A stretch of 64,000 nt of DNA from Blastococcus aurantiacus (GTDB taxonomy: Bacteria > Actinomycetota > Actinomycetes > Mycobacteriales > Geodermatophilaceae): the NCBI RefSeq assembly GCF_900102425.1, contig NZ_FNBT01000008.1:62001-126000 (forward strand), read 5' to 3'. Position 1 is the first letter of the stretch; the number at the start of each line of letters is the position of its first letter. Under the pieces are notes generated by a model that was given only the letters and a program-made list of their open reading frames with translations, was not told the origin of the DNA and made no database searches. The position numbers were made by a program, and so were the translations under genes. Of this stretch, positions 34,850 through 55,747 are shown piece by piece.

Positions 34850-34915
34850 TGAAACGGCCCCTCGGCCGGGTCCCGCCGCGGGCGTGCGGGCGGTGGGGGC
34901 CGAGGGGTCCTTCTG
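34850..34915. repeat. Nested-hairpin element, copy at glmS 3' end
   Basis: Outer stem GGCCCCTCGGCC (34856-34867) with GGCCGAGGGG-T-CC (34898-34910, T bulged). Inner CCCGCCGC (34872-34879) with GCGGTGGG (34890-34897), one G-T pair. Ends GATGAAACGGCC and GGTCCTTCTG; the latter lies 1-2 nt from the glmS TAG. Confidence 0.75.
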
Positions 34916-36793
34916 CTATTCGACGGTGACGCTCTTGGCGAGGTTGCGGGGCTGGTCGACGTCGTAGCCGCGGGTGTCGGCGATCTCGCAGGCCAGCACC
35001 TGCAGCGGCACCGTGGTGACCACCGGCGCGAGCAGCGTCGGGGTGCGCGGCACGCGGATGAGGTGGTCGGCGTAGGGCACGACGTCCTCGTCGCCCTCCT
35101 CGGCGATCACGATGGTCCGGGCGCCGCGGGCGCGGACCTCCTGGATGTTGGACACCACCTTCCCGTGCACCGACTCGCGGCTCCGCGGGGAGGGCACGAT
35201 TACGACGACCGGCGTCCCCTGGTCGATGACGGCGATGGGCCCGTGCTTGAGCTCGCCGGCCGCGAAGCCCTCGGCGTGGATGTAGGCGAGCTCCTTGAGC
35301 TTGAGGGCACCCTCCAGCGCCACCGGGAACCCGACGTGCCGACCGAGGAACAGGACGGTGTCCGCGTCGGCGAGCGAGCGGCCCAGGGCGCGGACCTCCT
35401 CCATGCTCGCCAGGACCGTCGCGACGGCGTCGGGCAGCTTGCGCAGATCGTCGACGATGGCGGCGATCTCGTCCTCGTACTTCATGCCGCGCACCTGGGC
35501 CAGGAAGAGCCCCACCAGGTAGCAGGCGACGATCTGGCTGAGGAAGGCCTTCGTCGAGGCGACCGCGATCTCAGGACCGGCGTGCGTGTAGAGGACGGCG
35601 TCGGACTCGCGCGGGATGGTGGACCCGTTGGCGTTGCAGATGGCCAGCACGCGGGCCTTCTGCTCCTTGGCGTGCCGCAGCGCCATCAGCGTGTCCATGG
35701 TCTCGCCCGACTGGCTGATGACGATGACCAGCGTGGAGCGGTCGAGCACCGGGTCGCGGTAGCGGAACTCGCTCGCCACCTCGACCTCGACCGGGATGCG
35801 CGTCCAGTGCTCGATCGCGTACTTGGCGATGAGGCCGGCGTGGTACGACGTGCCGCACGAGACGACGAAGATCTTGTCGATGTCGCGCAGTTCCTGGTCC
35901 GACAGCCGCACCTCGTCGAGCACCAGCTGGCCCTGCTCGCCCAGCCGGCCCAGCAGGGTGTCGGCGATGGCCTTGGGCTGCTCGGCGATCTCCTTGAGCA
36001 TGAACCAGTCGTAGCCGTCCTTCTCGGCGGCGGCGGCGTCCCAGTCGACCGTGTAGGCGGTCGGCTCGACAGCGGCCCCGGCGAAGTCGGTGACGGTCAC
36101 CCCGCGGGCGCGGTCGATCTCGACGACCTGGTCCTGGCCGAGCTCCAGGGCGTTGCGGGTGTGGCCGATGAACGCCGCGACGTCGGAGCCCAGGAAATAC
36201 TCCGCAGTACCGTCGGCTGTCTCTCCGATGCCGACCACCAGCGGGCTGCTGCGCCGCGCGGCGACGAGGGTGTCCGGCTCGGCGGCGTGGGTGGCGACGA
36301 GGGTGAAGGCGCCCTCGAGCCGGCGGCAGACCGCCCGCATCGCCTCGGCCAGCCGGCCCGCGCCCTCGGGGGCGTCGGCGTACGCGGCGGCCAGCAGGTG
36401 CCCCGCCACCTCGGTGTCGGTCTCCGAGGTGAACTCGATGCCGGTGCGTTCGCACTCGGCACGCAGCGAGGCGAAGTTCTCGATGATGCCGTTGTGGACG
36501 ACGGCGACTCGGCCGTCGGCGGAGACGTGGGGGTGCGCGTTGCGGTCGGTCGGGCCGCCGTGGGTGGCCCACCGGGTGTGCCCGATGGCCGTGGTGGCCG
36601 CGGGCAGCGGCCGCTCGGCCAGGACCTTCTCCAGGTTGGCGAGCTTCCCGGCCTTCTTCGCCGTCGTCAGCTCACCGTCGGCCAGCACCGCGATCCCGGC
36701 GGAGTCGTACCCCCGGTACTCGAGCCGGCGCAGGCCCTCCAGGACGACGTCCCGGGCATCCTGCGGGCCGACGTATCCCACGATTCCGCACAT
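34916..36793 (-). CDS. glmS: Glutamine-fructose-6-phosphate aminotransferase (isomerising)
   Basis: 625 residues. It makes glucosamine-6-phosphate for peptidoglycan. N-terminal Ntn-hydrolase glutaminase with nucleophile Cys2 (MCGIVGYVG), [15 protein letters not shown]; two SIS domains with SCGTSYHAG and [11 protein letters not shown]-terminal [16 protein letters not shown] 36793 must be the start because Cys2 is catalytic; TACCCT lies 7 nt upstream, a predicted leaderless start. An in-frame extension to 36856 is rejected. No glmS ribozyme is seen. glmM is 90 bp upstream. Confidence 0.97.
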
Positions 36794-36883
36794 TCGCACG
36801 AGGGTACCGGGGGCCGGCACCCGATCGGGGCATCCGCGGACCGGCCCACCCCGCACGGGGCAGCAGCCGGGCTGCCGCGGGCC

Positions 36884-38230
36884 TCAGCCGGCGCGGGCGA
36901 CGACGTCCGCGAGCCGGCCGGCCACGGCGTCTGCCTGGTCCTGCGTGGGCGCCTCGACCATCACGCGGACCAGCTGCTCGGTCCCGGAGGGACGCAGCAG
37001 CACCCTGCCGTTGTCGCCGAGCTCGTCCTCGACGGCGCGCACGGCCTCGGCGACCTCGGCGCTGCCCGCGACCGCGGCCCGGTCGACGACCGGCACGTTG
37101 ATCAGGATCTGCGGCAGCTTCTGCACCACGGCGGCCAGCTCGGCCAGCGAGGCGCCGGTCCCTGCCATGCGCGCCATGAGCGCGAGGCCGGTGAGCAGCC
37201 CGTCGCCGGTGGTGGCGTGGTCGAGGAACACCAGGTGACCGCTCTGCTCGCCGCCCAGGCTCAGGTTGCCCGCGCGGAGCGCCTCGAGCACGTAGCGGTC
37301 GCCGACGGCGGTGGTCTGCACCGCGATGCCGGCGTCGCGCATCGCGTGGTGGAAGCCGAGGTTGCTCATGACCGTGGCCACGACCGTGGCGTCGGTGAGG
37401 GCGCCTCGCTCCTGGAGCGCCAGGGCGCAGACGGCCAGGATCTCGTCGCCGTCGACGACGTCACCCGCCGCCGTCACCGCCAGGCAGCGGTCGGCGTCGC
37501 CGTCGTGGGCCAGGCCCAGGTCGGCACCCTGCGCACGGACCGCCTCGATCAGCGGTTCCAGGTGGGTCGAGCCGATCCCGTCGTTGATGTTCCAGCCGTC
37601 CGGCGCGCAGCCGATGGCGTGCACCGTGGCGCCCGCGCGGCGGTACACCTCGGGCGCGACGGCCGCGGCCGCGCCGTGCGCGCCGTCCACGACGACGGAG
37701 ATGCCGCGCAGCGGCTGGTCGACCGCCGCCAGCAGGTGGGCCTCGTAGTCGTCGACCGCGTTCGTGAGCGCGCGCACGCGGCCGATGCCCGCCCCGGTCG
37801 GCCGGAAGCCGGCCGGGTGGCCGTCGGCCACGGACTCCTCGATCGCCGCCTCGACGGCGTCGGGGAGCTTGTGCCCGCCACGGCTGAACAGCTTGATGCC
37901 GTTGTCGGGCATGGGGTTGTGGCTCGCCGAGATCATCACGCCGAGGTCGGCGCCGGTCGACCCGGTCAGGTGGGCCAGGGCCGGCGTGGGGACCACACCG
38001 GCGAGGAGCACCTCGGCCCCCGCGCTCGCCAGCCCCGCCACGACGGCGGCCTCGAGCATCTCCCCGCTGGCCCGGGGGTCACGGCCGACGACCGCGACGG
38101 GACGCGAGGTCCCGTCGCGGTCGGCGAGCACGCCTGCGGCGGCCCGGGCCACCGAGAGCGCCAGCTCCGGCGTGAGGTCGGCGTTCGCACGACCCCGGAC
38201 GCCGTCGGTCCCGAAGAGTCTCCCCCCCAT
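36884..38230 (-). CDS. glmM: Phosphoglucosamine mutase
   Basis: 448 residues. It converts glucosamine-6-P to glucosamine-1-P, the step after GlmS. Active-site Ser103 in [11 protein letters not shown], metal-binding DGDADRC, sugar-binding GGEQSGH and phosphate-binding [12 protein letters not shown]. It lies between rpsI (20 bp upstream) and glmS, probably cotranscribed with rplM-rpsI, an order also found in mycobacteria. Confidence 0.97.
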
Positions 38231-38250
38231 GGCCGACGCAGCCGTGCCGG

Positions 38251-38670
38251 TCAGCGCTTGGAGTACTGGGGCGCCTTGCGGGCCTTCTTCAGCCCGTACT
38301 TCTTGCGCTCCGTGACCCGCGGGTCGCGGGTGAGGAAGCCGGCCTTCTTGAGGGCCGGACGGTCGTCCGCCTCGATCTCGATCAGCGCGCGGGCGATGGC
38401 CAGGCGCAGCGCACCGGCCTGCCCGGACACGCCGCCGCCGTGGAGGAGACCGATGACGTCGTACTGCTCCGCCTTCTCGAGGATGACGAACGGCTCACGG
38501 ATGAGCTGCTGGTGCACCTTGTTCGGGAAGTAGTCCTCGATGGTGCGGCCGTTGAGCTTGAACTGACCGGTGCCGGGCACGAGGCGCACGCGGACGATGG
38601 CCTCCTTGCGGCGGCCGACGGTTTGGATCGGACGCCCGTCGGCGTCGGTCACGGTCGGAGCGCTGGTCAC
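38251..38670 (-). CDS. rpsI: 30S ribosomal protein S9
   Basis: 139 residues. An N-terminal extension of about 17 residues precedes the conserved [17 protein letters not shown]; then [22 protein letters not shown] and the basic tail [20 protein letters not shown] that reaches the P-site tRNA. GTG 38670 overlaps the rplM stop (GTGA), so L13 and S9 are coupled. Confidence 0.97.
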
Positions 38671-39110
38671 TGGGCCACCTGCTTGATCTCGTAGTTCTGG
38701 GGCTGCTGCGCAGCGTGGGGGTGCTCGGGGCCCGCGTAGACCTTGAGCTTCTTGAGCATCTGACGGCCCAGGCTGTTGTGCGGCAGCATGCCCTTGATCG
38801 CGCGCTCGATGACGCGGTCGGGGTGGGTGCGCAGCTGGTCGCCGACGTTGATGGTCTTCAGACCACCCGGGTGGCCGGAGTGCCGGTAGGCCACCTTGTC
38901 GTCCCGCTTGCTGCCCGTGAGGGCGACCTTCCCGGCGTTGACGATGACGACGAAGTCACCGACGTCGACGTGCGGGGCGTACTGCGGCTTGTGCTTGCCG
39001 CGCAGGAGCTGCGCGGTCTGGCTGGCCAGTCGGCCGAGCACCACATCGGTGGCGTCGATGACGAGCCAGGCCCGGTCGATCTCGCCGGGCTTGGGGGTGT
39101 ACGTGCGCAC
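38667..39110 (-). CDS. rplM: 50S ribosomal protein L13
   Basis: 147 residues, normal length: [62 protein letters not shown] 39110 has GGAGG about 11 nt upstream. First gene of rplM-rpsI-glmM, with a leader of about 100 nt that can fold (see separate entry). Confidence 0.96.
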
Positions 39111-39224
39111 GGCGCTCGTGTCCTCCGTCGTTGTCGGGAAGGCTGGTGGGATCGCCTCACCGAGCACGGGAGACGTAGCTGCACGCGCGGCACCAGCCGG
39201 CACACGCGCCAACCGAGCACGATA
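39111..39224 (-). promoter_or_regulatory. rplM promoter (extended -10) and structured leader
   Basis: On the minus strand TGGTATCGT (an extended -10, hexamer at 39219-39224) has no good -35. Transcription from about 39212 would give a ~100-nt leader in which GGCTGGTG and CACCAGCC (plus coordinates 39141-39148 and 39191-39198) can pair over a 42-nt interval. This may be a ribosomal-protein leader for L13/S9 autoregulation. Confidence 0.45.
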
Positions 39225-39233
39225 CCAGCCGTG

Positions 39234-39299
39234 AGAGGCCCCCCTTCCCCCCGCACCTCGCACGCTCGGCGCGGAACCCTGGAGGGGGGGCGTTCCATC
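39234..39299. repeat. Nested-hairpin element, inverted copy after carbonic anhydrase
   Basis: This copy has the opposite orientation to the others. On the minus strand it begins inside the carbonic anhydrase stop (TGATGGAACG), runs through a C-rich arm, CCGCGCC/GGTGCGG inner stem with loop GAGCGTGCGA, and ends GGGGGGCCTCT. The shared loop and ends identify it as a family member. Confidence 0.65.
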
Positions 39300-39783
39300 A
39301 GCTCACTTCGCGCAGCCGTCCCGTCGTGACGTCGTAGACCGTCCCCCGGACCTCGTGCGACAGCAGGTACGGGCTCTCCCGGATCAGGCGGATCGACTCG
39401 CGCACGTCCTGGTCCACGTCGGTGAACGCCCGGGCCGCCCATGGCGGGCGCCGGCCCGTCGCCTGCTCCACGGTGTCGGCGAAGGAGACGTCGTCGGTGG
39501 TCTGCAGCCCGCACTCGGTGTGGTGCACCAGCACGATCTCGCGGGTGCCCAGGGCGTGCTGGCTGATCGTCAGCGACCGGATGACGTCCTCGGTGATGAC
39601 GCCGCCGGCGTTGCGGATGACGTGGGCGTCGCCGACCTCCAGGCCGAGCACGCCGAACAGCGGGATGCGCGCGTCCATGCACGCCACAACGGCCACCTTG
39701 CGGGCCGGGCGCACCGGCTTGCTGCCGGGGAACTCCTTCGCCCACTGCTGGTTCGCCTCGAGCATCCGGTCGATCTCGGCCAC
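39298..39783 (-). CDS. Small beta-class carbonic anhydrase
   Basis: 161 residues. Zinc ligands C35 and D37/R39 dyad in ACMDARI, with H88 and C91 in [21 protein letters not shown] between. It resembles the short mycobacterial Rv1284-type enzyme. It interconverts CO2 and bicarbonate in the cytoplasm. GTG 39783 has AAGGAGG 4 nt upstream, a near-consensus site. It is divergent from moeA and its stop overlaps a nested-hairpin element. Confidence 0.92.
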
Positions 39784-39933
39784 GCGTCCTCCTTGCCGTC
39801 CTGGTCGCTGGGAGGTTAACCGGGGCGCCGGGCATCCGCTCCCGGACCGCCGGCCCCGGGCCGTGATCCCCTCGGACGGGCGACGGTCCCGGCCCCGGCG
39901 GCCCCGGCCCGGACCATCGGCGAGGATGGGCCG

Positions 39934-41136
39934 GTGCGGACGGTCGAGGAACACCAGGCTGCGGTCGCCGCCCTGCTGCCGCGGCTGCCCGAGGAGCGGG
40001 TGCCGCTGGCCGAGGCGCACGGCCGGGTGCTGGCGCGCGACGTGACCGCCGCCGTCGCGCTGCCCGGCTTCGACAACTCCGCGATGGACGGCTACGCCGC
40101 GCGGTGGGACGAGGTGGGCGGCGCGACGGAGCGACCGGTCCGGCTGCCCGTGGCCGAGGACATCCCCGCCGGACGCAGCGACGTCGTCCCCCTCGCGCCG
40201 GGCACGGTGCACCGGATCATGACCGGCGCCCCGCTGCCCCCCGGCGCTGACGTCGTCGTCCCGGTGGAGCTCACCGACGGCGGCACCGGGCAGGTGGAGA
40301 TCCGCGACTCCCCCGCCGCCGGCACGCACCTCCGGCGGGCGGGCGAGGACATCGCCGCCGGCGCCGTCGCGCTGTCGGCCGGCTCGGCGCTGGGGGCCGC
40401 CCAGCTGGGGCTGGCCGCCGCGGTCGGCCTGACCGACGTGCCGGTCCGTCGCCGGCCGCGGGTGCTGGTCCTGTCGACCGGGAGCGAGCTGGTGGCCCCC
40501 GGCGAGCCGCTGGCACCCGGCCAGATCTACGAGTCCAACTCGCTGTTGCTCGCCGCGGCGGTCGAGGAGGCCGGGGGGCTGCCCCGGCGGCTGCACTTCG
40601 TGCCCGACGACGTCGACCAGTTCCTCGCCACGGTGCGCGCGGAACTGGCGACGGCGGACCTGCTGATCACCAGCGGCGGTGTCAGCGCCGGCGCCTACGA
40701 GGTCGTCAAGGACGCCTTCCGCGGACTGGGCACCGTCGAGTTCGGCAAGGTCGCGATGCAGCCGGGCGGACCGCAGGGCGCGGGCACCGTCGACGGCGTC
40801 CCGGTCGTCACCCTGCCCGGGAACCCGGTGAGCGCCTTCGTGTCCTTCGAGGTGTTCGTCCGGCCGGCGCTCCGCCGGGCCCTGGGGCACGCCTCCCCGG
40901 ACCGGCTGCGCGCCCCCGCCCGGCTGACCGGACCGCTGCGCTCGCCCGCGGGCCGCCGGCAGTTCCTGCGCGGGTACGTGGAGGGTGGCGAGGTGTCGCA
41001 GGTCGGCGGGCCGGGCTCGCACCTGGTCGCGCACCTGGCGCGGGCGAATTGCCTGGTCGTCGTCCCCGAGGACGTCACCGAACTGACCGCCGGCGCCGAG
41101 GTCGACGTCGTGCTGATCGAAGGAGCGCTGCGATGA
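39934..41136 (+). CDS. moeA: Molybdopterin molybdotransferase
   Basis: 400 residues. It inserts molybdate into adenylylated molybdopterin. Motifs are NSAMDGYA, ITGAPLPPGAD-like MTGAPLPPGADVVV, LSTGSELVAPGE, TSGGVSAGAYE and LPGNPVSAFVSFEVFV. GTG 39934 follows GAGGAT by 6 nt. It overlaps moaC (ATGA) to form moeA-moaC-mog. I saw no Moco riboswitch in the 150 bp upstream. Confidence 0.95.
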   Translation: MRTVEEHQAAVAALLPRLPEERVPLAEAHGRVLARDVTAAVALPGFDNSAMDGYAARWDEVGGATERPVRLPVAEDIPAGRSDVVPLAPGTVHRIMTGAPLPPGADVVVPVELTDGGTGQVEIRDSPAAGTHLRRAGEDIAAGAVALSAGSALGAAQLGLAAAVGLTDVPVRRRPRVLVLSTGSELVAPGEPLAPGQIYESNSLLLAAAVEEAGGLPRRLHFVPDDVDQFLATVRAELATADLLITSGGVSAGAYEVVKDAFRGLGTVEFGKVAMQPGGPQGAGTVDGVPVVTLPGNPVSAFVSFEVFVRPALRRALGHASPDRLRAPARLTGPLRSPAGRRQFLRGYVEGGEVSQVGGPGSHLVAHLARANCLVVVPEDVTELTAGAEVDVVLIEGALR

Positions 41137-41606
41137 CCGGACCCCGGCTCACCCACGTCGACGAGGCCGGTGCCGCGCGCATGGTCGACGTCAGCGCCAA
41201 GGAGGTGACCGCGCGCGAGGCGACCGCTGCCGGACGGGTGCTGGTGAGCTCCGAGGTGGTGGCCCTGCTCCGCGGCACGGGCGTGCCGAAGGGCGACGCC
41301 GTCGCAGTGGCGCGGATCGCGGGGATCGCCGGGGCCAAGCGGACGCCGGACCTCGTGCCGCTGTGCCACCCGATCGCGCTGCACGGGGTCACCGTCGACA
41401 TCGAGGTGGCCGACGACGCCGTCGAGATCACCGCGACCGCACGCACCGCGGACCGCACCGGGGTGGAGATGGAGGCGCTCACCGCGGTCACCGTCACCGG
41501 GCTCACGATGATCGACATGGTGAAGGCCGTCGACCCGCGCGCCTCGATCACCGACGTCCGGTTGCTGCGGAAGTCCGGCGGCAAGAGCGGGCTGTGGACG
41601 AGGTGA
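41133..41606 (+). CDS. moaC: Cyclic pyranopterin monophosphate synthase
   Basis: 157 residues. It completes ring formation to cPMP with MoaA (not in this window). THVDEAGAARMVDVSAKEVT, LVPLCHPIALHGV (catalytic Lys/His region), GVEMEALTAVTVTGLT and MVKAVDP are conserved. ATG 41133 overlaps the moeA TGA; its own TGA overlaps the next start (GTGA). Confidence 0.96.
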   Translation: MTGPRLTHVDEAGAARMVDVSAKEVTAREATAAGRVLVSSEVVALLRGTGVPKGDAVAVARIAGIAGAKRTPDLVPLCHPIALHGVTVDIEVADDAVEITATARTADRTGVEMEALTAVTVTGLTMIDMVKAVDPRASITDVRLLRKSGGKSGLWTR

Positions 41607-42103: not shown

Positions 42104-42122
42104 CGCGCCCCCCGCCGCGGGC

Positions 42123-43828: not shown

Positions 43829-44491
43829 ATGCGCATCGTCATCGCCGGCGCCCACGGCCAGGTCGCCCGTCGGCTCGGCCGCCTGCTGTCCGGCCGCGGG
43901 GACACCGTCGTGGGCATCATCCGGAACCCCGACCACGCCGCGGACCTGGAGAGCGACGGCGTCCGGCCCGCGGTCCTCGACCTCGAGTCCACCACCGTGG
44001 AGGAGCTCGCGGACGTGGTGCGCGACGCCGACGCCGTCGTGTTCGCCGCCGGTGCGGGCCCGGGCAGCGGAGAGGCCCGCAAGCACACCGTCGACCACGG
44101 CGCCGCCGTCCTGCTGGCCGACGCCGCGGAGCGAGCCGGCGTGCGCCCCTACGTGCTCGTCTCGTCCATGGGCGTCGAGCAGGCCCGCGAGGGGACGCCG
44201 CAAGGGGTGGACCCGGTGATGGCCGTATACCTGCAGGCCAAGCTGCGCGCCGAGGACGCGGTGCTCCCGCGGGAGGCGCTGTCCACCACGGTTCTGCGAC
44301 CGGGAGGGCTCACCGACGACCCCGGCACCGGCCGGGTGACCCTGGGCCACGGCATCGGTTACGGCAGCGTGCCCCGGGACGACGTCGCCGCCGTGCTCGT
44401 GGCGCTGCTCGACGCCCGGCGCGACGGCGCCGTGGTCGAGCTCGTCGGCGGCGACACCCCGATCGCCGAGGCGGTCCGCGACGCGACGTGA
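43829..44491 (+). CDS. NAD(P)-binding SDR-like protein (NmrA/YwnB type)
   Basis: 220 residues, atypical SDR. Rossmann loop AGAHGQVARRLGRLL at residue 6, D59-like LDLESTTVEEL, VVFAAGAGPGS, VSSMGVEQA and YLQAKLRAEDA (a YxxxK in a variant position). Family members bind NAD(P) and often act as flavin reductases or redox-sensing regulators; the role here is unknown. It starts 9 nt after mobA and is probably cotranscribed. Its stop TGA overlaps the first base of a nested-hairpin element, which would be its terminator. Confidence 0.83.
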   Translation: MRIVIAGAHGQVARRLGRLLSGRGDTVVGIIRNPDHAADLESDGVRPAVLDLESTTVEELADVVRDADAVVFAAGAGPGSGEARKHTVDHGAAVLLADAAERAGVRPYVLVSSMGVEQAREGTPQGVDPVMAVYLQAKLRAEDAVLPREALSTTVLRPGGLTDDPGTGRVTLGHGIGYGSVPRDDVAAVLVALLDARRDGAVVELVGGDTPIAEAVRDAT

Positions 44492-44556
44492 TGGAACGGC
44501 CAGCTGCAGGGTCCCGCCGCGAGTCTGCGAGCGGTGGGGGGCAGCGGGTCCTTCTT
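44490..44556. repeat. Nested-hairpin element between convergent SDR gene and truA
   Basis: Fills the whole gap: GATGGAACGGCC starts inside the SDR TGA and GGGTCCTTCTT runs to the truA TAG. Outer stem GCTGC/GCAGC plus GGCC/GG-T-CC; inner CCCGCCGC/GCGGTGGG with one G-T pair; loop GAGTCTGCGA. This copy shows both ends of the element touching stop codons. Confidence 0.8.
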
Positions 44557-45513
44557 CTAGGAGCGGCGGGCGCGGGTGAGCAGGGCGCGGTCGGCCAGCA
44601 TGTCGTCGGGCGGGTAGTCGACGCGGACCAGCGTCAGCCCGCCGGCCGGGGCCACCGGTACCTCGCTGGCCCGCTCGTCGCGGGAGAGCAGCCCGGCGGG
44701 CCAGTCGGGGGTGCGCCGCCCCTCGCCCACCGCCGTCAGCGCACCCACGAGGCTGCGCACCATCGAGTGGCAGAAGGCGTCGGCCGAGGCGGAGATCGTC
44801 ACCAGCTCACCGGTGCGGACGACGTCCAGGGCGAGCAGGGTGCGGATGGTCGTGGCGCCCTCGCGGCGGCGGCAGTAGGCGGCGAAGTCGTGCTCGCCCA
44901 GCAGCAGCGCCGCCGCCGCTGCCATTGCGCCGGCGTCGAGCGTGCGCGGCCAGGCGACGGTGTCGGCCCGCCGCAGCGGCGGTGGACCCCAGACGGCGTC
45001 GGTCAGCCGGTAGACGTAGTGCCGGCCCAGGGCGGCGAACCGGGCGTCGAAGTCCGGATGCGCCTCCACCACTGCGGGGACCGCGATGTCCGGCGGCAGG
45101 ACCCCCCGGAGCCGCCGCACCAGTCGGTCCCGGTGCTCGTCCCACACCGCGCCCGGGACGTCGCAGTGAGAGACCTGGCCGGTGGCGTGGACGCCCGCGT
45201 CGGTGCGCCCGGCGACGGTCAGCTCGACCGGGGTCCGGAGCACGGTCCCGAGGGCCTGCTCGAGGTCTCCCTGGACCGTGCGCTGCGCCGGCTGGCGGGC
45301 CCAGCCGTGCAGCGCGGTGCCGTCGTAGCTGACCGACAGACGAAGACGGACGAGCCCGCCACCGGTGTCGGTGACGGGCTCGCCCGGGTGTTCGGTGTTC
45401 AGCGTTGTCGCAGCGTCAGCGCGGGTCGGGAGCCGACTCGCCGCCGGGGGCGTGCAGGCTCGCGGTGGCCGCGTCGCCCTGCTCCGCGGCGTTGACCTCG
45501 GCCGCGGCCGCAT
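44557..45513 (-). CDS. truA: tRNA pseudouridine(38-40) synthase
   Basis: Isomerises U38-U40 in tRNA anticodon arms. The TruA fold starts with [19 protein letters not shown]; catalytic Asp in [20 protein letters not shown] and [13 protein letters not shown] follow. The start is uncertain. The only ATG/GTG/TTG in frame is ATG 45513 (GGAG 8 nt upstream), giving 318 residues and a 98-nt overlap with the preceding acidic ORF, but those first ~40 codons read like a shadow frame. A CTG at 45399 would give a normal 280-residue TruA. It follows rplQ as in many actinobacteria. Confidence 0.9.
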
Positions 45514-45799
45514 CGGCGAGCTCCGGCGAGATGTTGTCGCCCTCGACGACGACGCCGTTCTCCGCGGTGGGCTGCCGGTCGACGGCGCCGTCGTCCTGGC
45601 GCTCGCCGTCGGGGTTGAAGACGTCGGTGACGACCTGCTGGGCCTCGTCGGTGACGCTGCCGTCGGTCACCGCCGGGGAGGTGTCCCCGCCGGGTCCGGT
45701 GGTCTCGCCCTCGAAGGTCGCGCCCTGGTCGCCGCCGCCGGCGTTCACACCCGCAGCGCCGGCACCGGGCTCAGGCCCGGTACCCGTGGAGCTGGTCAC
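45416..45799 (-). CDS. Acidic low-complexity protein between rplQ and truA, unknown function
   Basis: 127 residues, strongly acidic and rich in Gly, Ala, Asp and Thr, with no hydrophobic core: predicted disordered. Segments include [18 protein letters not shown] and [18 protein letters not shown] 45799 overlaps the rplQ TGA (GTGA), the usual sign of a real coupled gene in this region, and third positions are G/C-rich. It overlaps the putative 5' end of truA in another frame. No family recognised; it could be a lineage-specific ribosome-operon protein. Confidence 0.6.
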
Positions 45800-46413
45800 T
45801 TGGCGTCCGTCTCGGGCTCGGCCTCCGCGACGGCCTCGGCCTCGTCGGCGACGACCGCGTCGGCCTCGTCGGGGGCGGCGACCGCGTCGGCCTCGTCCGG
45901 AGTGGCGACTGCGTCCGCGTCCGCGGAGTCGTCGGCCAGGGCCGGCTCGACGGCGTCGGCGGTGACCTCACCGGAGGCGGCGGCAGCACCGGCGCCGGTG
46001 GCGAACTGCGTGCCACGGGCGCGCTCGGCCTCGCCGACGGCCTGCTGCCCGACGGTCAGCGCCTCGACCAGCTCGATGACGGCCATCGGGGCGTTGTCGC
46101 CCTTGCGCGGGCCGACCTTGGTGATGCGGGTGTAGCCGCCCGGCCGGTTCGCGAAGCGCGGACCGATCTCGGCGAAGAGCGTGTGGACGACGTCCTTGTC
46201 CCGGATGACGGTCATCACCTGGCGACGGGAGTGCAGGTCACCACGCTTCGCGAAGCTGACCAGCTTCTCGGCGTAGGGGCGCAGCCGCTTGGCCTTGGCC
46301 TCGGTGGTCGTGATCCGCCCGTGCTCGAACAGCGACGTGGCCAGGTTGGCCAGCATCAGCCGCTGGTGCGCGGGGGATCCGCCGAGACGGGGACCCTTGG
46401 TGGGGGTGGGCAT
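45796..46413 (-). CDS. rplQ: 50S ribosomal protein L17 with long acidic tail
   Basis: 205 residues; the conserved L17 core ([20 protein letters not shown] to [15 protein letters not shown]) takes about 118. The remaining ~85 residues are an Ala/Asp/Glu low-complexity tail with near-repeats of PDEADAV(A/V)A. Long L17 tails are known in actinobacteria, but this one is highly repetitive. It follows rpoA after 126 bp containing a nested-hairpin element and overlaps the next gene. Confidence 0.96.
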
Positions 46414-46469
46414 GTCGGTCCTTCCTCAGGCTGCCGGCCGGTGCGAGGGGCGGCTGCGTTCATGGTGAC

Positions 46470-46539
46470 GTGCTGGAGTGGCCCCCTCGCAGGGCCCCGC
46501 CGCGAGCGTGCGAGCGGTGGGGGGCGAGGGGGCCCTTCC
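46470..46539. repeat. Nested-hairpin element between rpoA and rplQ
   Basis: Outer perfect 11-bp stem GGCCCCCTCGC (46480-46490) with GCGAGGGGGCC (46524-46534); inner CCCCGCCGC/GCGGTGGGG with one G-T pair; loop GAGCGTGCGA. The GGCCCTTCC end abuts the rpoA TGA (46540-46542). It lies inside the alpha operon. Confidence 0.8.
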
Positions 46540-47619
46540 TCAGAGCTGCTCGGTCTCCTGGTAGGAGCCCTCGTCGTACTGGGGCTGCTGCTCGTAGCCG
46601 GGGGCGAACTCGCCGGTGCCCTGGTAGGCGTCGGTCTCGTAGCCCTCGTCGTAGCTCTCGATGGAGGTCGGGATGAATCCGGGCGGGCTGTCCTTGAGGG
46701 CCAGGCCCATGGCCGCGAGCTTCATCTTGACCTCGTCGATCGACTTCGCACCGAAGTTGCGGATGTCGAGCAGGTCGGCCTCGGAGCGGGTGACGAGCTC
46801 ACCGACGGTGTGCACGCCCTCGCGCTTGAGGCAGTTGTAGGACCGGACGGTGAGGTCCATGTCCTCGATCGGCATCGAGAAGTTCGCGATGTCGGCGGCC
46901 TCGGCCGGGCTCGGCCCGACCTCGATGCCCTCGGCGTCGACGTTCAGCTCGCGCAGCAGACCGAACAGCTCGACCAGCGTCGACCCGGCCGACGCGATGG
47001 CGTCGCGGGGGGCGATGGAGGGCTTGGTCTCGACGTCGACCACGAGGCGGTCGAAGTCGGTGCGCTGCTCGACACGGGTCGCCTCGACGGCGTAGGTGAC
47101 CTTGAGGACCGGCGAGTAGATCGAGTCGACGGGGATGCGACCGATCTCCTGGCCGGGCTGCTTGTTCTGCGGCGCGGGGACGTAGCCGCGACCGCGCTCG
47201 ACGACGAGCTCCACCTCGAGGCGGCCCTTGCCGTTGAGCGTGGCGATGTGCAGGTCGGGGTTGTGCACCTCGACACCGGCCGGCGGCGCGATGTCCGCGG
47301 CAGTGACCTCACCGGGGCCCTGCTTGCGCAGGTACATGGTCACCGGCTCGTCGGAGTCGGAGCTGACGACCAGGCCTTTGAGGTTGAGGATGAGCTCGGT
47401 GACGTCCTCCTTGACGCCCGGCACGGTGGTGAACTCGTGCAGGGTGCCCTCGATGCGGATGCTGGTGACAGCAGCGCCGGGGATCGAGGACAGCAGCGTG
47501 CGCCGCAGGGAGTTGCCGAGGGTGTAGCCGAAGCCAGGCTCGAGCGGCTCGATGACGAACCGCGAGCGCATCTCCGAGATGGTCTCCTCGGTGAGCGTGG
47601 GGCGCTGTGCGATGAGCAT
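46540..47619 (-). CDS. rpoA: RNA polymerase alpha subunit
   Basis: 359 residues. N-terminal domain: [35 protein letters not shown] (dimer interface), KGRGYVPA-like [13 protein letters not shown]-terminal domain (about 245-315) with [20 protein letters not shown] and [13 protein letters not shown]. The last ~40 residues are a Tyr/Gln/Glu-rich tail beyond the usual fold. ATG 47619 has AAGGAG 6 nt upstream. Confidence 0.98.
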
Positions 47620-48787: not shown

Positions 48788-48905
48788 GTCTCTCCGGTTC
48801 CTTCAGTTGCTGTGGCCTGGGGGTGCTGCCGCGAGGCAGCGCACGCCGGGTGCTGTCACTCCCGCCCTCACGGGTCGCTGTGACGGCACGTCGACGTGCT
48901 GTGGA

Positions 48906-49280: not shown

Positions 49281-49294
49281 GTTCAGGTACTCCC

Positions 49295-49408
49295 TCAGCC
49301 CTGGCGCTGCTTGTGCCGGGCGTTGTCGCAGATGACCATGACCCGGCCGTGCCGGCGGATCACCTTGCACTTGTCACAGATCTTCTTCACCGACGGCTGG
49401 ACCTTCAC
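49295..49408 (-). CDS. rpmJ: 50S ribosomal protein L36
   Basis: 37 residues, too short for many ORF lists. GTG 49408: [20 protein letters not shown] then [17 protein letters not shown]. The zinc ligands CxxC, C and H are all present ([13 protein letters not shown]). It sits between infA (71 bp upstream) and rpsM as in other actinobacteria. Confidence 0.96.
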
Positions 49409-49479
49409 CGGTGCCGCCCCTCATTCCTCGATCGTGTGCCGGCCGCGTCTCTGCCGGTGGGCAGTCGCTGGCCGAGCGG

Positions 49480-49701
49480 TTACTTGTAGCGGTAGACGAT
49501 GCGACCGCGCGTCAGGTCGTAGGGCGAGAGCTCCACGACCACGCGGTCCTCGGGCAGGATGCGGATGTAGTGCTGACGCATCTTGCCGCTGATGTGGGCG
49601 AGCACCCGGTGCCCGTTCTGCAGTTCGACCCGGAACATCGCGTTGGGCAGCGGCTCGACGACGCGACCCTCGACCTCGATGGCCCCGTCTTTCTTCGCCA
49701 T
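49480..49701 (-). CDS. infA: Translation initiation factor IF-1
   Basis: 73 residues, a single S1-like OB fold: [54 protein letters not shown]. First gene of the infA-rpmJ-rpsM-rpsK-rpsD-rpoA-rplQ operon, with its own clear promoter about 175 bp upstream. Confidence 0.97.
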
Positions 49702-49857
49702 GCCCTACACGCACTCCTTGACTCGGTGGTACTCGTACCTCGCTCCTGCGCCCACGGGTGGACCCGGGGCGACGAGCTCGGTGATTGCAGAACAGGTGGT
49801 GCAGGCGCTGTCGCAGAGGGCGTTCCCCGTCACGCGGCCACAGCACGACGAAAGAAC

Positions 49858-49905
49858 GGCGCTAGCGCCACAGGGAATCGTACCTGACGACACACCAGCC
49901 ACCAA
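49858..49905 (-). promoter_or_regulatory. infA operon promoter with a 12-bp palindrome at the start site
   Basis: Minus strand: -35 TTGGTG (49900-49905), 17-nt spacer, -10 TACGAT (49877-49882), the best sigma-70-type promoter seen in the window. Transcription should start near 49870. A perfect palindrome GGCGCTAGCGCC (49858-49869) covers about +1 to +12. The leader to infA is about 170 nt. Confidence 0.65.
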
Positions 49906-49906
49906 C

Positions 49907-49941
49907 CGGCCCCCGTGAGGGGTGGGACACCCCGGCCGGGG
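49907..49941. terminator. Hairpin after map
   Basis: Inner GGGGTG/CACCCC (49919-49924 with 49928-49933, loop GGA), flanked by C-rich and G-rich arms that extend pairing imperfectly. It lies just after the map TAG and ends next to the infA promoter, separating the secY-adk-map unit from the alpha operon. Confidence 0.6.
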
Positions 49942-49945
49942 AGGC

Positions 49946-50815
49946 CTAGCTGCGGGCGGTGACGCCGAAGGGCGCCAGTCCCGCGACGCCACCGTCCTCG
50001 GCCGTCAGGACCCAGGGACCCTCGGGCGTGATGGCGACGGTGTGCTCGAAGTGGGCGGCCCGGGAGCCGTCCTTGGTGACGACGGTCCAGCCGTCGTCCA
50101 GCTCGACGGTGGACGGGTCCCCCACCGTCACCATCGGCTCGATCGCCAGCGCGAGCCCGGGCACCAGCTTGGGCCCGCGGCCTGCACGCCCGTAGTTCAG
50201 GATGTGCGGGTCCTGGTGCATCTCGGTGCCGATGCCGTGCCCGCCGTAGTTGTCGACGATCCCGTAGGGGTGCGCGTGCGCCCGGATCGACTCCTCGACC
50301 GCCGCACTGATGTCGGTGAGCCGGCCGCCCGCGACGGCGCGCGCGAGCCCGGCCCACATCGAGCGCTCGGTGACCTCCAGCAGCGCGGCGTCCTCCGGTG
50401 AGGGCTCCCCCACCGTCACGGTGACCGCGGAGTCACTGTGCCACCCCTGCAGGACCGCGCCGCAGTCGATGGAGATGTTGTCCCCCTCGGCCAGCGTGCG
50501 GCCGGGGTCGGGGATGCCGTGGACGACCTCGTCGTTGATGGACGCGCAGATCGTCCCGGTGAAGCCGTGGTAGCCCAGGAAGTTCGACACGGCGCCCCGG
50601 GACCGGATGTGGTCGGCCGCGATGGCGTCGAGCTCACCGGTGGTGACACCGGGCCGGACGGCGGCCTTGACCGCGGCCAGCGCACCGGCCGTCACGAGCC
50701 CGGAGGCGCGCATGAGCTCGAGCTCCTGCGCCGTCTTGATCTGGATCATCCGTCCACTCCACTTCGCCAGCAGCGGCACCCGGGCCAGCAGCGCCTCGCG
50801 ACGGTCGCCGTGCAC
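49946..50815 (-). CDS. map: Type I methionine aminopeptidase
   Basis: Removes the initiator Met from nascent proteins. The pita-bread fold metal ligands are visible: D in SIDCGAVLQGWHSDSAVTV (two Asp), His in YGGHGIGTEMH, Glu in LAIEPM and Glu in FEHTVAI. GTG 50815 is proposed (GGGAGG 6 nt upstream and G/C-rich third positions in the extra 22 codons), giving 289 residues; ATG 50749 (267 residues, GGAG upstream) is the alternative. It follows adk by 12 nt. Confidence 0.95.
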   Translation of the reverse strand: MHGDRREALLARVPLLAKWSGRMIQIKTAQELELMRASGLVTAGALAAVKAAVRPGVTTGELDAIAADHIRSRGAVSNFLGYHGFTGTICASINDEVVHGIPDPGRTLAEGDNISIDCGAVLQGWHSDSAVTVTVGEPSPEDAALLEVTERSMWAGLARAVAGGRLTDISAAVEESIRAHAHPYGIVDNYGGHGIGTEMHQDPHILNYGRAGRGPKLVPGLALAIEPMVTVGDPSTVELDDGWTVVTKDGSRAAHFEHTVAITPEGPWVLTAEDGGVAGLAPFGVTARS

Positions 50816-50827
50816 TGCCGGCCTCCC

Positions 50828-51442
50828 TCAGGCGCCGGCCGGCGCCGCGCTCGGGTCCTCGGGGTCGACACCGAGCGCCCGCAGCGCCCGGGCCGTGACC
50901 TCTTCCACGGAGCCGATCGCGTCGATCCGGGAGAGCAGCCCCACGGTCTCGTAGAACCCCGAGAGCGGCGCGGTCTGTTCCCGGTAGACCTCCAGGCGGT
51001 GCCGGACGGTCTCGGGCTTGTCGTCGTCGCGCTGGACCATCTGCCCGTCGACGAGCATGCGCCGGCCGGAGAGGCGCCGGACCAGCTCCTCCTCCTCGAC
51101 GACCAGCTCGAGCACCCGGTCCAGGCCGTGGCCGAGGTCGGCGAGGGACTCGGCCAGCTGCTCGGCCTGCGCGATGGTGCGCGGGAAGCCGTCGAGCAGG
51201 AAGCCGGCCTTGGCGTCGGGCTCGGCCAGCCGGTCCTTGACCATGGCGACGGTGATCTCGTCGGGGACGAGATCACCCGCGTCCATGAAGACCTTGGCCT
51301 TGAGGCCGAGCTCGGTCTGCCCGCTGACGTTCGCCCGGAAGATGTCCCCGGTGGAGATCGCCGGGACGGCGAGGCGGCCTGCGATGAACTGCGCCTGGGT
51401 GCCCTTGCCCGCTCCGGGGGGCCCCAGCAGGACGATGCGCAC
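50828..51442 (-). CDS. adk: Adenylate kinase
   Basis: 204 residues. P-loop [10 protein letters not shown] at residue 7, [16 protein letters not shown] and a [17 protein letters not shown] region. The LID is short, without the four-Cys zinc insertion, as in mycobacterial Adk. It balances ATP, ADP and AMP. GTG 51442 overlaps the secY TAG by one base (TAGTG). Confidence 0.97.
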
Positions 51443-52752
51443 TACTTCAGGAACCCTTCGTAGTTGCGCTGGTTCAACTGCGTCTCGATCTGCTTCACCG
51501 TCTCCAACCCCACTCCGACCATGATCAGCACTGCGGTCCCGCCGAACGGGAAGTTCTGGTTCTGGCCCTCCTGCGTCACCGCGAGGAAGAAGTTCGGCAG
51601 CACGGCGACGATCCCGAGGTAGAGCGCACCCGGGAGCGTGATGCGGGACAGCACGTACTGCAGGTACTCGGCCGTCGGACGGCCCGGGCGGATGCCCGGG
51701 ATGAAGCCGCCGTAGCGCTTCATGTCGTCCGCGCGCTCCTCGGGGTTGAACGTGATCGACACGTAGAAGTACGTGAAGAAGACGATCAGCGCGAAGTAGA
51801 GCGCGACGTGCACGGGGCTGCTCTGGTCGATGATGTAGTTCTCGAAGAACTGGCGGACCGAGCCCGTCTCGTCACCCTGCAGCTGGCTGATCAGCTGCGG
51901 CAGGTACAGCAGCGACGACGCGAAGATGACCGGGATGACGCCGGCCTGGTTGACCTTCAGCGGCAGGTAGGTCGACGTCCCGCCGTACATGCGGCGGCCG
52001 ACCATCCGCTTGGCGTATTGGACGGGGATGCGCCGCTGCGCCTGTTCGACGTAGACGACCGCGCCGATGATGAGGACCGCGAAGGCGCACACCACCGTGA
52101 AGACGAGGACGCCGCGGGTCTGCAGGATCGAGCCGCCCTCGGCCGGGATGCGGGCCGCGATCGAGGTGAAGATCAGCACGGACATGCCGTTGCCGATCCC
52201 CTTCTCGGTCAGCAGCTCGCCGAGCCACATGATCAGCGCCGTGCCGGCCGTCAGAGCGACGACCAGGACGATCGTCGTCCACACGGAGTCCGAGGGGATG
52301 ATCGGCTCGGAGCAGCCCGGGAACAGCTGGCCGCTGCGGGCCAGGGCGATGATGCCGGTGCTCTGCAGGACCGCCAGGGCGATCGTCAGGTAGCGCGTGT
52401 ACTGGGTCAGCTTGGCCTGACCCGACTGGCCTTCCTTCTTCAACTGCTCGAAGCGCGGGATGACCACGACCAGCAGCTGCACGATGATGCTCGCGGTGAT
52501 GTACGGCATGATGCCGAGCGCGAACACCGACAGGCGCAGGAGCGCGCCGCCGGAGAAGAGGTTGACCAGCGAGTAGATGTCGCGCTGGGAGCCGGCCTCG
52601 GCGAGCTCGAGGCAGTTGTTGATCGCCTCGACCGACACCCCTGGTCCCGGCACCTGGGCACCCAGCCGGTAGACGGCGATGATCGCCAGGGAGAACAGCA
52701 GCTTGCGCCGGAGATCTGGCGTCCGGAACGCCGCGGCGAACGCCTGCAGCAC
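51442..52752 (-). CDS. secY: Preprotein translocase subunit SecY
   Basis: 436 residues with ten membrane helices, the channel of the Sec translocon. [21 protein letters not shown] in helix 1, plug region near [19 protein letters not shown], the cytoplasmic loop [21 protein letters not shown], and [25 protein letters not shown]. It closes the spc operon before adk-map. The 133 bp between rplO and secY contain a nested-hairpin element. Confidence 0.98.
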
Positions 52753-52816
52753 GAGCCCTCCCCTTATCGGTCGAGTGAGGTTAGCAACCCGTCCGCCAGC
52801 GGTCGCGCAGGGCGGA

Positions 52817-52885
52817 CAGGAGAAGGCCCCCCTGCGATCCCCGCCGCGGGCGTGGCGCGCGGCGGGAGCAGGGGGGCCCTCCTGA
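52817..52885. repeat. Nested-hairpin element between rplO and secY
   Basis: Outer perfect 11-bp stem GGCCCCCCTGC (52825-52835) with GCAGGGGGGCC (52868-52878); inner perfect 8-bp CCCGCCGC (52840-52847) with GCGGCGGG (52859-52866). The GGGCCCTCC end lies 3-4 nt from the rplO TGA. Arms differ from the rpoA copy but pair fully. Confidence 0.8.
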
Positions 52886-53329
52886 TCAGATGCGGGTGGT
52901 GCTGCCCCCGGCCGCGCCGATCTTCTCGGCCGCGGCCGAGGAGAAGGCGTGGGCCGAGACGTCGACCTTGACGCCGCCGAGCTCGCCGGTGCCCAGCACC
53001 TTCACCGGCTGGTTGCGGCGGACCGCACCGGCCTCGGCGAGGGTGTCCGGGTTGACCGTCCCGCCCTGCGGGAAGAGCGCGGCGATCCGGTCGAGGTTGA
53101 CGACCTGGAAGACGATCTTGTTCGGGGGCTTGAAGCCCGAGAGCTTGGGCAGCCGCATGTGCAGCGGGGTCTGCCCACCCTCGAACCGGGCGTGCGTGTT
53201 GCCACGCGCGCCGGTGCCCTTGGTGCCGCGACCGGCGGTCTTGCCCTTGGAGCCCTCACCACGACCCACGCGGGTCTTGGCGGTGTGGGCGCCCGGGGCG
53301 GGACGCAGGTGGTGGACCTTCAGTGTCAT
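52886..53329 (-). CDS. rplO: 50S ribosomal protein L15
   Basis: 147 residues: [58 protein letters not shown], and a C-terminal beta domain ending ADKIGAAGG-like [14 protein letters not shown]. Starts 13 nt after rpmD. Confidence 0.97.
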
Positions 53330-53342
53330 AGCGAGTCGTTCC

Positions 53343-53522
53343 TCAGACTTCTTCGACGGTGACCAGGTGCGGCACCGTCGCGACCATCCCGCGGATCTCG
53401 GGACGGTCCTCCTGGACGACCGAGTCGTGGATCCGCTTGAGGCCCAGCGAACGCAGCGTCTGGCGCTGGTTGGGCTTCGTGCCGATACCGGACTTGATCT
53501 GGGTGACCTTCAGCTGCGCCAT
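53343..53522 (-). CDS. rpmD: 50S ribosomal protein L30
   Basis: 59 residues, the compact bacterial form: [30 protein letters not shown] with the following [22 protein letters not shown] 53522, one base after the rpsE stop; the frame to 53549 lies in rpsE. Confidence 0.96.
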
Positions 53523-53523
53523 C

Positions 53524-54165
53524 TCAGACTCCCTGGCCCGCACGGGCACGGAGCATGGCCGCCGGGGCGACGTCCTCCAGGGGCAGACCGCGGCGGGCCG
53601 CGATCTCCTCGGGACGGACGAGGTCCTTCAGGGCCTGCATCGTGGCGTGCACGATGTTGATCGGGTTCGAGGACCCGAGGCTCTTCGAGAGCACGTCGTG
53701 GATGCCGGCGCACTCGAGGACGGCGCGCACCGGACCACCGGCGATGACACCGGTACCGGGGCTGGCCGGCTTGAGCAGCACGACTCCGGCCGCCGCCTCA
53801 CCCTGCACCGGGTGCGGGATGGTGCTGGCGATGCGCGGCACGTTGTAGAAGTGCTTCTTGGCCTCCTCGACGCCCTTGGCGATCGCCGCGGGCACCTCCT
53901 TGGCCTTGCCGTAGCCGACGCCGACCTTGCCGTCACCGTCGCCCACGATCACCAGGGCGGTGAAGCTGAAGCGACGACCACCCTTGACGACCTTGGACAC
54001 GCGGTTGATGGCGACCACGCGCTCGATGTAGTTGCTCTTCTCGGCGGGTGCGCCGCCGGGGCCACGCCCGCCGTCACGACGGTCGCGGCGGTCGTTGCCG
54101 CCACCGGCACCGCCCGCGCCACCGGCACCGCCGGCGCCGCCGCCGCGTCGCTGTGGTCCTGGCAT
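53524..54165 (-). CDS. rpsE: 30S ribosomal protein S5 with Gly-rich N-terminus
   Basis: 213 residues. S5 core from about residue 48: [83 protein letters not shown]. The first ~45 residues are a Gly-Gly-Ala repeat and RRD-rich extension, longer than usual. ATG 54165 follows rplR by 49 nt. Confidence 0.97.
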
Positions 54166-54214
54166 CAGAGGTCCCTCTCGATCTGCTGGTTCGTGCTGCT
54201 GGTGGGGGTGGTCA

Positions 54215-54622
54215 TCAGAAGTCCAGCCCACCCTCGCGGGCACCGTCGGCCAGGGCGGCGATGCGCCCGGCGTACCGGTTGCCACCGCGGTCGAAGACGA
54301 CCGCGGAGATGCCGGCGGCCTTCGCCCGCTCCGCCACCAGGGCACCCACCTGACGGGCCAGGGCGGACTTGTCGCCCTCGGCACCCTTCAGGCTCGCGTC
54401 CATCGTGGAGGCACTGACCACGGTGCGGCCGAGGGTGTCGTCGACGACCTGCACGTGGATGTGGCGCGAGCTGCGCTTGACCACCAGGCGCGGACGCTCG
54501 GCGGTACCGGAGACCCGCTTGCGCAGCCTGTTGTGGCGACGCAGCCGCGATACGCGGCGCGCCGTGCTGATGTCGGTTCCGACGGGCTTGTGGACCCGAG
54601 CGGCCTTCTCTGCCTGAGCCAT
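54215..54622 (-). CDS. rplR: 50S ribosomal protein L18
   Basis: 135 residues: [94 protein letters not shown]. The start overlaps the rplF TGA: ATG 54622 by one base, or GTG 54625 by four. Confidence 0.97.
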
Positions 54623-55161
54623 CACTTACCCGTCTTCCCGACCTTGCGCTTGACGACCTCGCCCTGATACCGCACGCCCTTGCCCTTGTACGGGTCGGGC
54701 TTGCGGATCTTGCGGATCTTGGCTGCGACCTCACCCACGAGCTGCTTGTCGATGCCCGTGACCCGCAGACGGGTCGGCGCCTCGACGGCGAAGGTGATGC
54801 CGTCCGGTGCCTTGACCGGCACCGGGTGGCTGAAGCCCAGGGCGAACTCGAGGTCCGAGCCGCGCGCCTGGACGCGGTAGCCGACGCCGACGATCTCGAG
54901 GGTCTTGGTGTACCCCTCGGTGACGCCGGTGATCATGTTGGCGATCAGCGTCCGCGAGAGCCCGTGGAGGGCGCGGTTCTGTCGCTCGTCGTTGGGGCGC
55001 TGCACCCGCAGCGTGCCGTCCTCGTCGCGCTCGACGGTGATCGGCGAGGCGACCGTGTGGCTGAGTTCGCCCTTGGGTCCCTTCACGCTGACCGTCTGGC
55101 CGTCGATCGTGACGTCCACGCCACCGGGCACGGCGATCGGGAGTCGTCCGATCCGTGACAT
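54622..55161 (-). CDS. rplF: 50S ribosomal protein L6
   Basis: 179 residues: [54 protein letters not shown], and [27 protein letters not shown]. Starts 14 nt after rpsH. Confidence 0.97.
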
Positions 55162-55175
55162 CTTCGCTCGCTCCC

Positions 55176-55586
55176 TTACCAGACGTAGGCGAGGACTTCC
55201 CCACCCACGCCCTTCTTGTTCGCCTGCTTGTCGGTGAGCAGCCCGGTGGACGTGGAGATGATCGCCACGCCCAGGCCGCCGAGCACCTTGGGCAGTCCGG
55301 TGGACTTCGCGTAGACCCGGAGACCGGGCTTGGACACGCGCTTGACGCCGGCGATGCTGCGCTCGCGGTTGGGGCCGTACTTCAGGTCGACCACCAGCTG
55401 CTTGAAGGTGCTGCCGTCCTTCTCCACCTCGTCGACGCGCCAGCCGGCGATGTAGCCCTCCTGCTGGAGGATCTCGGCGATGTGCGTCTTGAGCTTGGAG
55501 GACGGCATGACCGCGGCGTCGTGGTACGCCTGGTTGGCGTTCCGCAGACGCGTCAGCATGTCCGCGATCGGGTCGGTCATCGTCAT
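55176..55586 (-). CDS. rpsH: 30S ribosomal protein S8
   Basis: 136 residues: [39 protein letters not shown], and [37 protein letters not shown] 55586, or 55580 three... two codons later. The 161-bp gap to rpsZ holds a nested-hairpin element. Confidence 0.97.
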
Positions 55587-55677
55587 GTCGGGTGTTGCCT
55601 CTCTCGCCGCGGTTCCTCATGCGCCGGGTCTCGGGGACTTGGCGCTGGGCCTCTCGGCGATCAGTGGTGCTTGGTGG

Positions 55678-55747
55678 GATGGAACGGCCTGGCTGCCGGA
55701 ACCCGCGGCGCGCGGAGCGTGTCGTGGGGAGCAGCCTGGTCCTTCTG
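55678..55747. repeat. Nested-hairpin element between rpsZ and rpsH
   Basis: GATGGAACGGCC end at 55678 and GGTCCTTCTG end abutting the rpsZ TAA (55748-55750). Outer arms GGCTGC/GCAGCC with flanking GGCC and GG-T-CC; the inner part (CCCGCGGCGCGC to GTGGGGA) is the most diverged copy. It lies in the middle of the spc operon. Confidence 0.7.

Follow-up and report, generated by a model that had tools for sequence, protein, structure and literature searches.

What does a small folded sequence do at the end of a gene, and on which strand is it kept able to fold? The question is raised by a 64,000-nucleotide stretch of the Blastococcus aurantiacus genome (contig NZ_FNBT01000008.1, positions 62,001 to 126,000 of the forward strand; hereafter the window), in which an element of 60–80 bases recurs that forms a nested hairpin and lies mostly tight against stop codons. 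The original prediction, made from the letters of the window, had described it as a dispersed nested-hairpin family at stop codons, and this description held on testing. The element belongs to a family with a characteristic placement, covarying arms, a preference for folding on one strand, a T-rich tail on one side only and a phasing relative to the stop codon.

In one orientation the fold consists of an outer stem, an asymmetric internal loop (usually AGGGN on the 5′ side and two bases on the 3′ side), an inner stem of eight pairs and a terminal loop, which reads GAGCNNGCGA in most copies. By inspection, the common ends are GGTGACGTGCTGGAACGG and GGTCCTTC, the left one being extended to GGTGACGTGCTGGAACGGCC or near it in several copies of this genome. 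Both ends occurred 20–50 bases apart 12 times in the 4.16-Mb genome and the reversed pattern not once, so that the copy number is far above chance. A covariance model built on 17 copies, the seven of the window and ten others of the same genome, gave 135 matches in the genome at E≤1 and at least 121 at E≤1e-4, a lower bound because only 150 of the 8517 first-look candidates were scored. Since the window copies are training copies and must match, independent evidence comes from the remainder of the genome, where the covariance-model search that the prediction had proposed recovered many further copies. Rfam had no match in the window at the gathering score, and the part around copies 4 and 5 (44400-46620) gave none even with the limit at E=1; this absence counts against membership in an Rfam family and agrees with the claim that no described family has this form. 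Among the titles listed by a literature search that covered few subscription papers, none concerned such an element in Geodermatophilaceae. Covariation, further copies and the lack of an Rfam match thus all fell on the side of the prediction.

We examined the placement in 86 copies from 864 kb of this genome, with genes called by the author's script. The GGTCCTTC end (GGTCC) abutted the stop codon of a gene on the opposite strand in 70 of the 86 copies, where 0.8% was expected by area. Forty-four of the flush copies lay between codirectional genes, 21 of these with fewer than 40 bases to the next start, and 25 lay between convergent genes, the stop of the left gene falling inside the left end in 9 of them. 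The 74 right-hand minus-strand genes ended in TGA (56), TAG (11) or TAA (7), compared with 670, 120 and 28 for all genes. At 100 loci from named genomes, the distance was 1, 2, 4 or 5 bases in 105 of the 119 copies measured (140 matches in all). Among 201 pooled copies, in which some few sites are perhaps counted twice, TGA stood 1 or 4 bases from GGACC in 119 of 146 cases and TAG 2 or 5 bases from it in 42 of 45, and the 10 TAA cases had no single spacing; the pooled phasing is biased because many copies were fetched by GGTCCTTC, which forbids some distances. The copies of this genome outside the exact-end pattern showed the same phasing (TGA 31/43, TAG 7/9). The commonest gene-sense forms in the pooled set were TGAAGGACC (21 copies), TGANGAAGGACC (72), TAGAAGGACC (23) and TAGNAGAAGGACC (15), in which the stop codon is either completed by the first bases of the element or lies exactly one codon before them.

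Compared with G022, a genome of the same genus with no detectable copy, the protein ended at the same codon at all 15 ends alignable to its fetched parts and at 14 of 14 under a stricter comparison, which speaks against stop codons supplied by random insertion. The stop type differed from that of G022 at 6 of 14 occupied ends and at 27 of 222 others (p=0.006; the numbers are small). Together with the phasing, this switching of stop type suggests a junction in the stop codon itself. Overall, the predicted anchoring at stop codons held, as did the distance check, the gene being the one on the opposite strand.

The arms of the hairpin change in step. In the 86 copies 96.4% of cells were paired, and 12 of 18 pairs carried two-sided changes, a number reached by 1 of 500 shuffles; two-sided cells numbered 209, compared with 58 after shuffling, and none of 500 shuffles reached 209. 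When the partner was slid along, pairing fell to 45–62%. In the named-locus set, which comprises 140 matches from 100 of 115 loci, 97.6% of cells were paired and two-sided cells numbered 346 against 100 in shuffles (0/500), with 10 of 18 pairs two-sided, a number that 170 of 500 shuffles reach. The percentage paired, the two-sided cells and the covariation score were above all 500 shuffles and all slid controls in both sets, whereas the number of two-sided pairs was above 499 of 500 shuffles here and above only 330 of 500 in the named loci. Ten clear copies of the rpsN site, picked from 23 genomes and aligned with plain MAFFT, showed two-sided changes in 5 of 20 pairs; they fall into two loop types, so that more than one insertion or conversion may have taken place there. 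The claimed covariation of the arms is strong, exceeds shuffles and recurs among copies at one orthologous site.

The non-Watson-Crick cells of the stems are not symmetrical between strands. In the orientation shown, the 86 copies contain 1342 Watson-Crick, 145 G-U, 12 A-C and 44 other cells, and the named set contains 236 G-U and 19 A-C; an A-C cell in this orientation is what a G-U pair on the strand of the gene would look like. Because the model could favour G-U, we repeated the count on 118 copies picked by their ends and loop alone, with pairing ignored. Outside one wobble column these gave 38 G-U against 10 A-C (p=6e-5), divided into 20 to 1 in the inner stem and 18 to 9 in the outer arms; the wobble column itself gave 90 to 0. 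The loop carries a tandem G-A/A-G in 76 of the 86 copies, which can pair solely on the strand favoured by the G-U bias, and the calculated RNA energy was lower on the antisense strand in 83 of 86. The strand kept foldable is the antisense one relative to the gene at whose stop codon the element lies, and it forms a stable hairpin of the kind looked for in intrinsic terminators.

The sequence beyond the hairpin is also one-sided. On the antisense strand, the next bases were TTCT, TCTT, TTCC or TTTC in 53 of 74 cases, running into the complement of the stop codon. A T score above the random 95th percentile was reached by 93% of antisense tails and 7% of sense tails (72 of the 86 copies were measurable). 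Without the exact-end copies, the proportions were 92.5% of 67 antisense and 7.6% of 66 sense tails in this genome, and 80% of 30 and 7.7% of 26 in the named loci, where tail and phasing counts are biased because most copies were fetched by their GGTCCTTC end. Of the 15 listed copies that have no called gene on that side, most keep the tail as well. At least four T in eight bases were found at 50% of 48 element ends, at 3.3% of 180 other ends in this genome and at 0% of 126 ends in G022. A terminator grammar common to all gene ends was rejected, because stems at other ends lack such a tail. Overall, the predicted selection on folded nucleic acid was supported, although the prediction had missed the opposite-strand gene, the foldability of the antisense strand and the one-sided tail.

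Intrinsic terminators are built in this way, as a stable hairpin with a T-rich tail behind it on one strand, and here the arrangement points into the 3′ end of the gene touched, which makes a one-way antisense terminator the most likely reading. We put the chance at about even that the element is terminator-like and one-way, barring antisense transcription while passing sense transcription; this judgement is drawn from the sequences. An antisense transcript heading for the 3′ end of the gene is presumably untranslated and would form the strong nested hairpin in full; the polymerase would then meet the T-rich tail overlapping the stop codon and halt at the edge of the gene. In the sense direction there is no T-rich tail, and a ribosome arriving at the stop codon would either lie over the flush hairpin or melt it, so that the operon should be read through. 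Sense read-through would explain the copies inside rpoA-rplQ, rplO-secY and rpsN-rpsH, which we take to be operons. The fold would be kept by selection while the arm sequences drift by paired changes, and copies would be lost by deletion of the hairpin. For E. coli, one study (PMC4824070) describes almost complete repression of a terminator that follows a translated gene at a distance of a few bases; this argues that the spacing seen here does not suit a sense terminator and is harmless for sense passage. A broader version, in which one-way valves stand at gene 3′ ends throughout Geodermatophilaceae and were spread by a process whose junction re-creates the stop codon, is more doubtful, and we propose it only tentatively.

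The copies in the window are listed below by position and strand; for copies 1 to 7 the coordinates are covariance-model matches and the bit scores are those of the model.

14363..14388, + strand: hairpin-less remnant, GGTGACGCTGGAGCGG joined to GGTCCTTCTA, identified from sequence and gene calls
22167..22229, + strand: copy 1, left end lost; 62.1 bits; abuts stop TCA of the chaperonin gene 22226-23869 (-)
34841..34918, + strand: copy 2; 75.3 bits; abuts stop CTA of glmS 34916-36820 (-)
39229..39306, - strand: copy 3; 79.5 bits; likely stop TCA 39298-39300 inside its own left end
44483..44559, + strand: copy 4, between convergent genes; 85.4 bits
46465..46542, + strand: copy 5, between rpoA and rplQ; 91.3 bits; abuts stop TCA of rpoA 46540-47619 (-)
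52809..52886, + strand: copy 6, diverged, between rplO and secY; 38.7 bits; abuts the rplO stop (52886-53329 -)
55671..55749, + strand: copy 7; 70.9 bits; abuts stop TTA of the gene 55748-55933 (-), presumably rpsN, as its C-terminus suggests

All seven predicted copies were found where they had been placed. Six share the + orientation; the one predicted at 39234-39299 lies on the minus strand relative to them. The quoted ends are not present in every copy either: GATGGAACGGCC is exact only at 44490 and 55678, the left end is missing at 22165, and at 52817 both ends are diverged. The supposed related convergent form at 14346-14383 is instead the hairpin-less remnant at the stop codon of guaA (GMP synthase by Pfam), where the TGA of the left gene is 14365-14367 and the guaA stop codon CTA is 14386-14388; similar remnants occur at the rpsN site of two relatives (G019 and G004). 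The protein end of the chaperonin gene next to copy 1 is the same in G022, where the element is absent. At the glmS end, G001, G010, G019 and G022 have different hairpins in place of copy 2. Copy 3 is an exception to the anchoring rule, its likely stop codon lying in the left end and not flush with the right. In copy 4, the left end contains the TGA of the left gene (44489-44491), and the right end is abutted by the CTA (44557-44559) of truA, a pseudouridine synthase gene. Copy 5 has a near-identical copy at the matching rpoA site of G019, copy 6 also gave a weak match on the other strand (E=0.117), and the site of copy 7 holds element copies in the ten genomes that were aligned.

Several further features were seen at or near these sites. 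In the 5′ linker, base 4 tracks the pair in the middle of the inner stem: U-A goes with A in 17 copies and with G in none, C-G with G in 62 and with A in 1 (84 of the 86 copies scored in alignment A4, p=2e-16); because 10 of the 17 copies with A and U-A share one outer arm, this association may mark a subfamily and not an alternative pairing. One copy, at L160:16889-16979 (G000:C12), has a repeated loop, GAGCGTGCGAGCGTGCGAGCGTGCGA, apparently slippage in the loop. At the rplO site, several relatives have composite forms, in which one end bears an AAGGACC-type arm and the opposite end GGTCC; they look as though an inverted copy of one arm had been made. Left of copy 1, window positions 22119-22157 form a near-perfect hairpin of about 17 pairs, GAGAGGGCCCGGTCCAG-AAAT-CTGGACCGGGCCCTCTC, without the loop of the element. 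A second hairpin motif, GGGATCAGGTGACCTGATCCC with GTCCTCCCTCACCG...GTGAGGGAGGAC, follows the glmS and chaperonin genes in relatives without the element there (G022, G010, G001, G019). The gap left of copy 7 (55587-55670) is well conserved in 23 genomes and could be a ribosomal-protein leader; the window has no Rfam match.

Both gains and losses mark the history of the family. For 20 of 90 copies, both flanks lay within the fetched parts of G022, with short gaps or unrelated hairpins in place of the element; at one site G022 reads GTGATCAG and this genome GTGA-element-TCAG, with no target duplication. At rpoA, the copies of this genome (G000) and G019 are 97.4% identical over 76 bases, and G001 has a diverged copy, whereas G010 and G022, although more closely related, have another hairpin there. 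As the outgroups G019 and G001 carry the element and G010 and G022 do not, losses occur as well as gains, and we dropped the absence from G022 as proof of recent gains. A loose search of this genome for hairpin-less remnants gave 25 matches against 43 for the reversed control, so remnants are claimed only at the named sites. No paralogous pair among the 86 copies reached 95% identity, which indicates no recent burst in the part examined. Y1 transposase (PF01797) was found in none of 23 genomes of the genus at E≤0.001, with 5 of 14 controls positive (other transposase classes were not searched), and membership in the system of repetitive extragenic palindromic (REP) sequences and their REP-associated tyrosine transposases (RAYT) was rejected on this ground. 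Reverse transcriptase (PF00078) was present in 4 of the 23 genomes and absent from this one, which is 97% complete; this weakens the idea of a retro-element driven from this genome.

The family is present in 101 of 112 Geodermatophilaceae genomes, this one included. Among 40 genomes (this one and 39 relatives), 23 were positive at E≤1e-4, all in Geodermatophilaceae; 16 genomes of other families of the order gave no match, nor did 295 other genomes drawn from the class, in each of which about 16 candidates were scored. An exact-pattern search of named genomes returned at least 115 stretches; among the matches listed, the titles were Geodermatophilus, Blastococcus, Modestobacter or Geodermatophilaceae, with the sole exception of 'UNVERIFIED_ORG: Bacillus sp. 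AZ43'. Within the genus the number of copies ranges from 0 (G022) and 2 (G010) up to at least 118, and sister genomes differ widely (11 and 97, 31 and 110, on a tree from a 3-kb region). Viral contigs gave no match to the exact pattern and plasmids none to one copy used as query, which weakens carriage by phage or plasmid.

A number of observations speak against a one-way antisense terminator or soften the evidence for it. For the 86 copies and for the named loci alike, the alignment had been fitted to the model; copies that are related do not count as independent, and most named copies were fetched by exact ends. The strand signal is weak in the outer arms, and the sense strand folds well too. 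The tail is weak, with a mean of 3.5 T in 8 and only half of the 48 scored element ends reaching four; of the five sites called by a terminator scan set to the consensus (5 T in 8), one merely overlaps the right end of copy 7, and the hairpins of copies 3-7 were not among them. Sixteen of the 86 copies do not fit the anchoring rule, convergent context is not enriched (27 of 73 copies with a right-hand minus-strand gene, compared with about a third of gene 3′ ends), and the operon membership invoked for read-through is our presumption. Some members of the genus manage with 0, 2 or 4 copies. Moreover, a one-way terminator does not explain how new gene ends acquire copies.

One alternative is a selfish mobile palindrome resembling REPs or miniature inverted-repeat transposable elements (MITE), with a single-stranded DNA hairpin recognised by a trans-acting enzyme; fold and strand preference would then be there for transposition, and stop codons would be no more than safe landing sites. 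The high and patchy copy number, from 0 to at least 118 in one genus, the 20 of 90 copies with flanks in G022 but no element (one site without target duplication), the strand-asymmetric fold and the conserved loop all suit it. We nevertheless consider it unlikely, since it does not lead one to expect a T-rich tail or stop phasing, and since no Y1 transposase occurs in the 23 genus genomes (the only transposase class searched), no reverse transcriptase in this genome, no pair at 95% identity among the 86 copies, and no match in viral contigs (exact pattern) or plasmids (one copy). Slightly less probable still is an element acting on the sense strand in the 3′ untranslated region (UTR), where it would slow ribosomes, protect the mRNA from 3′ decay or end transcription of the gene. 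Its distance to the stop codon is near-fixed whatever the stop type, the sense strand folds strongly, and one study (PMC12306157) reports ribosome stalling at REPs that lie no more than 15 bases from stop codons; yet the wobble pairs, the tandem G-A and the T-rich tail all favour the other strand, and the sense tail is near background.

That the copies are ordinary bidirectional terminators of convergent genes with a common origin appears very improbable. Between convergent genes lie 27 of the 86 copies, and the left end holds the stop of the left gene in 9 of the 25 flush ones, but codirectional genes surround 44 flush copies, in 21 of which the next start is fewer than 40 bases away, and both the tight spacing and the tail are found at one end only. 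If the one-way antisense terminator is correct, a dedicated and repeated cis element holds antisense transcription at the borders of genes, a task then not left to Rho and chance terminators alone; the effect can be measured at more than 100 sites per genome, and G022 is a close natural comparison. The phasing poses the further question of what process sets a 70-base element at any stop type and leaves the protein end unchanged.

Among known systems, the original prediction had likened the element to the mycobacterial interspersed repetitive units (MIRU). These and other mycobacterial interspersed repeats are associated with stop codons, but MIRUs are tandem direct repeats; by that description they are set apart from the single nested hairpins found here, and the analogy stays loose. 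REPs of the GTAG and CGTC families are likewise dispersed palindromes with a patchy occurrence between relatives. REPs are described as 20-40 bp long (PMC3733652), and those of E. coli lying within 15 bases of stop codons are given as 446/4,072 (PMC12306157). The present element differs in its 60-80 bases, nested form, conserved loop and ends, single orientation to the gene and T-rich tail, in the lack of a Y1 transposase in the 23 genomes of the genus, and in having no unpaired GTAG or CGTC tag at its end, CGTC occurring only inside the left end on the other strand. With intrinsic (Rho-independent) terminators it shares a stable GC-rich hairpin; the sequence after it is enriched in T on the antisense strand only, at a level below the usual consensus. 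It departs from them in facing the 3′ end of the abutting gene, flush with its stop codon, and in being a sequence family with a conserved loop and conserved ends.

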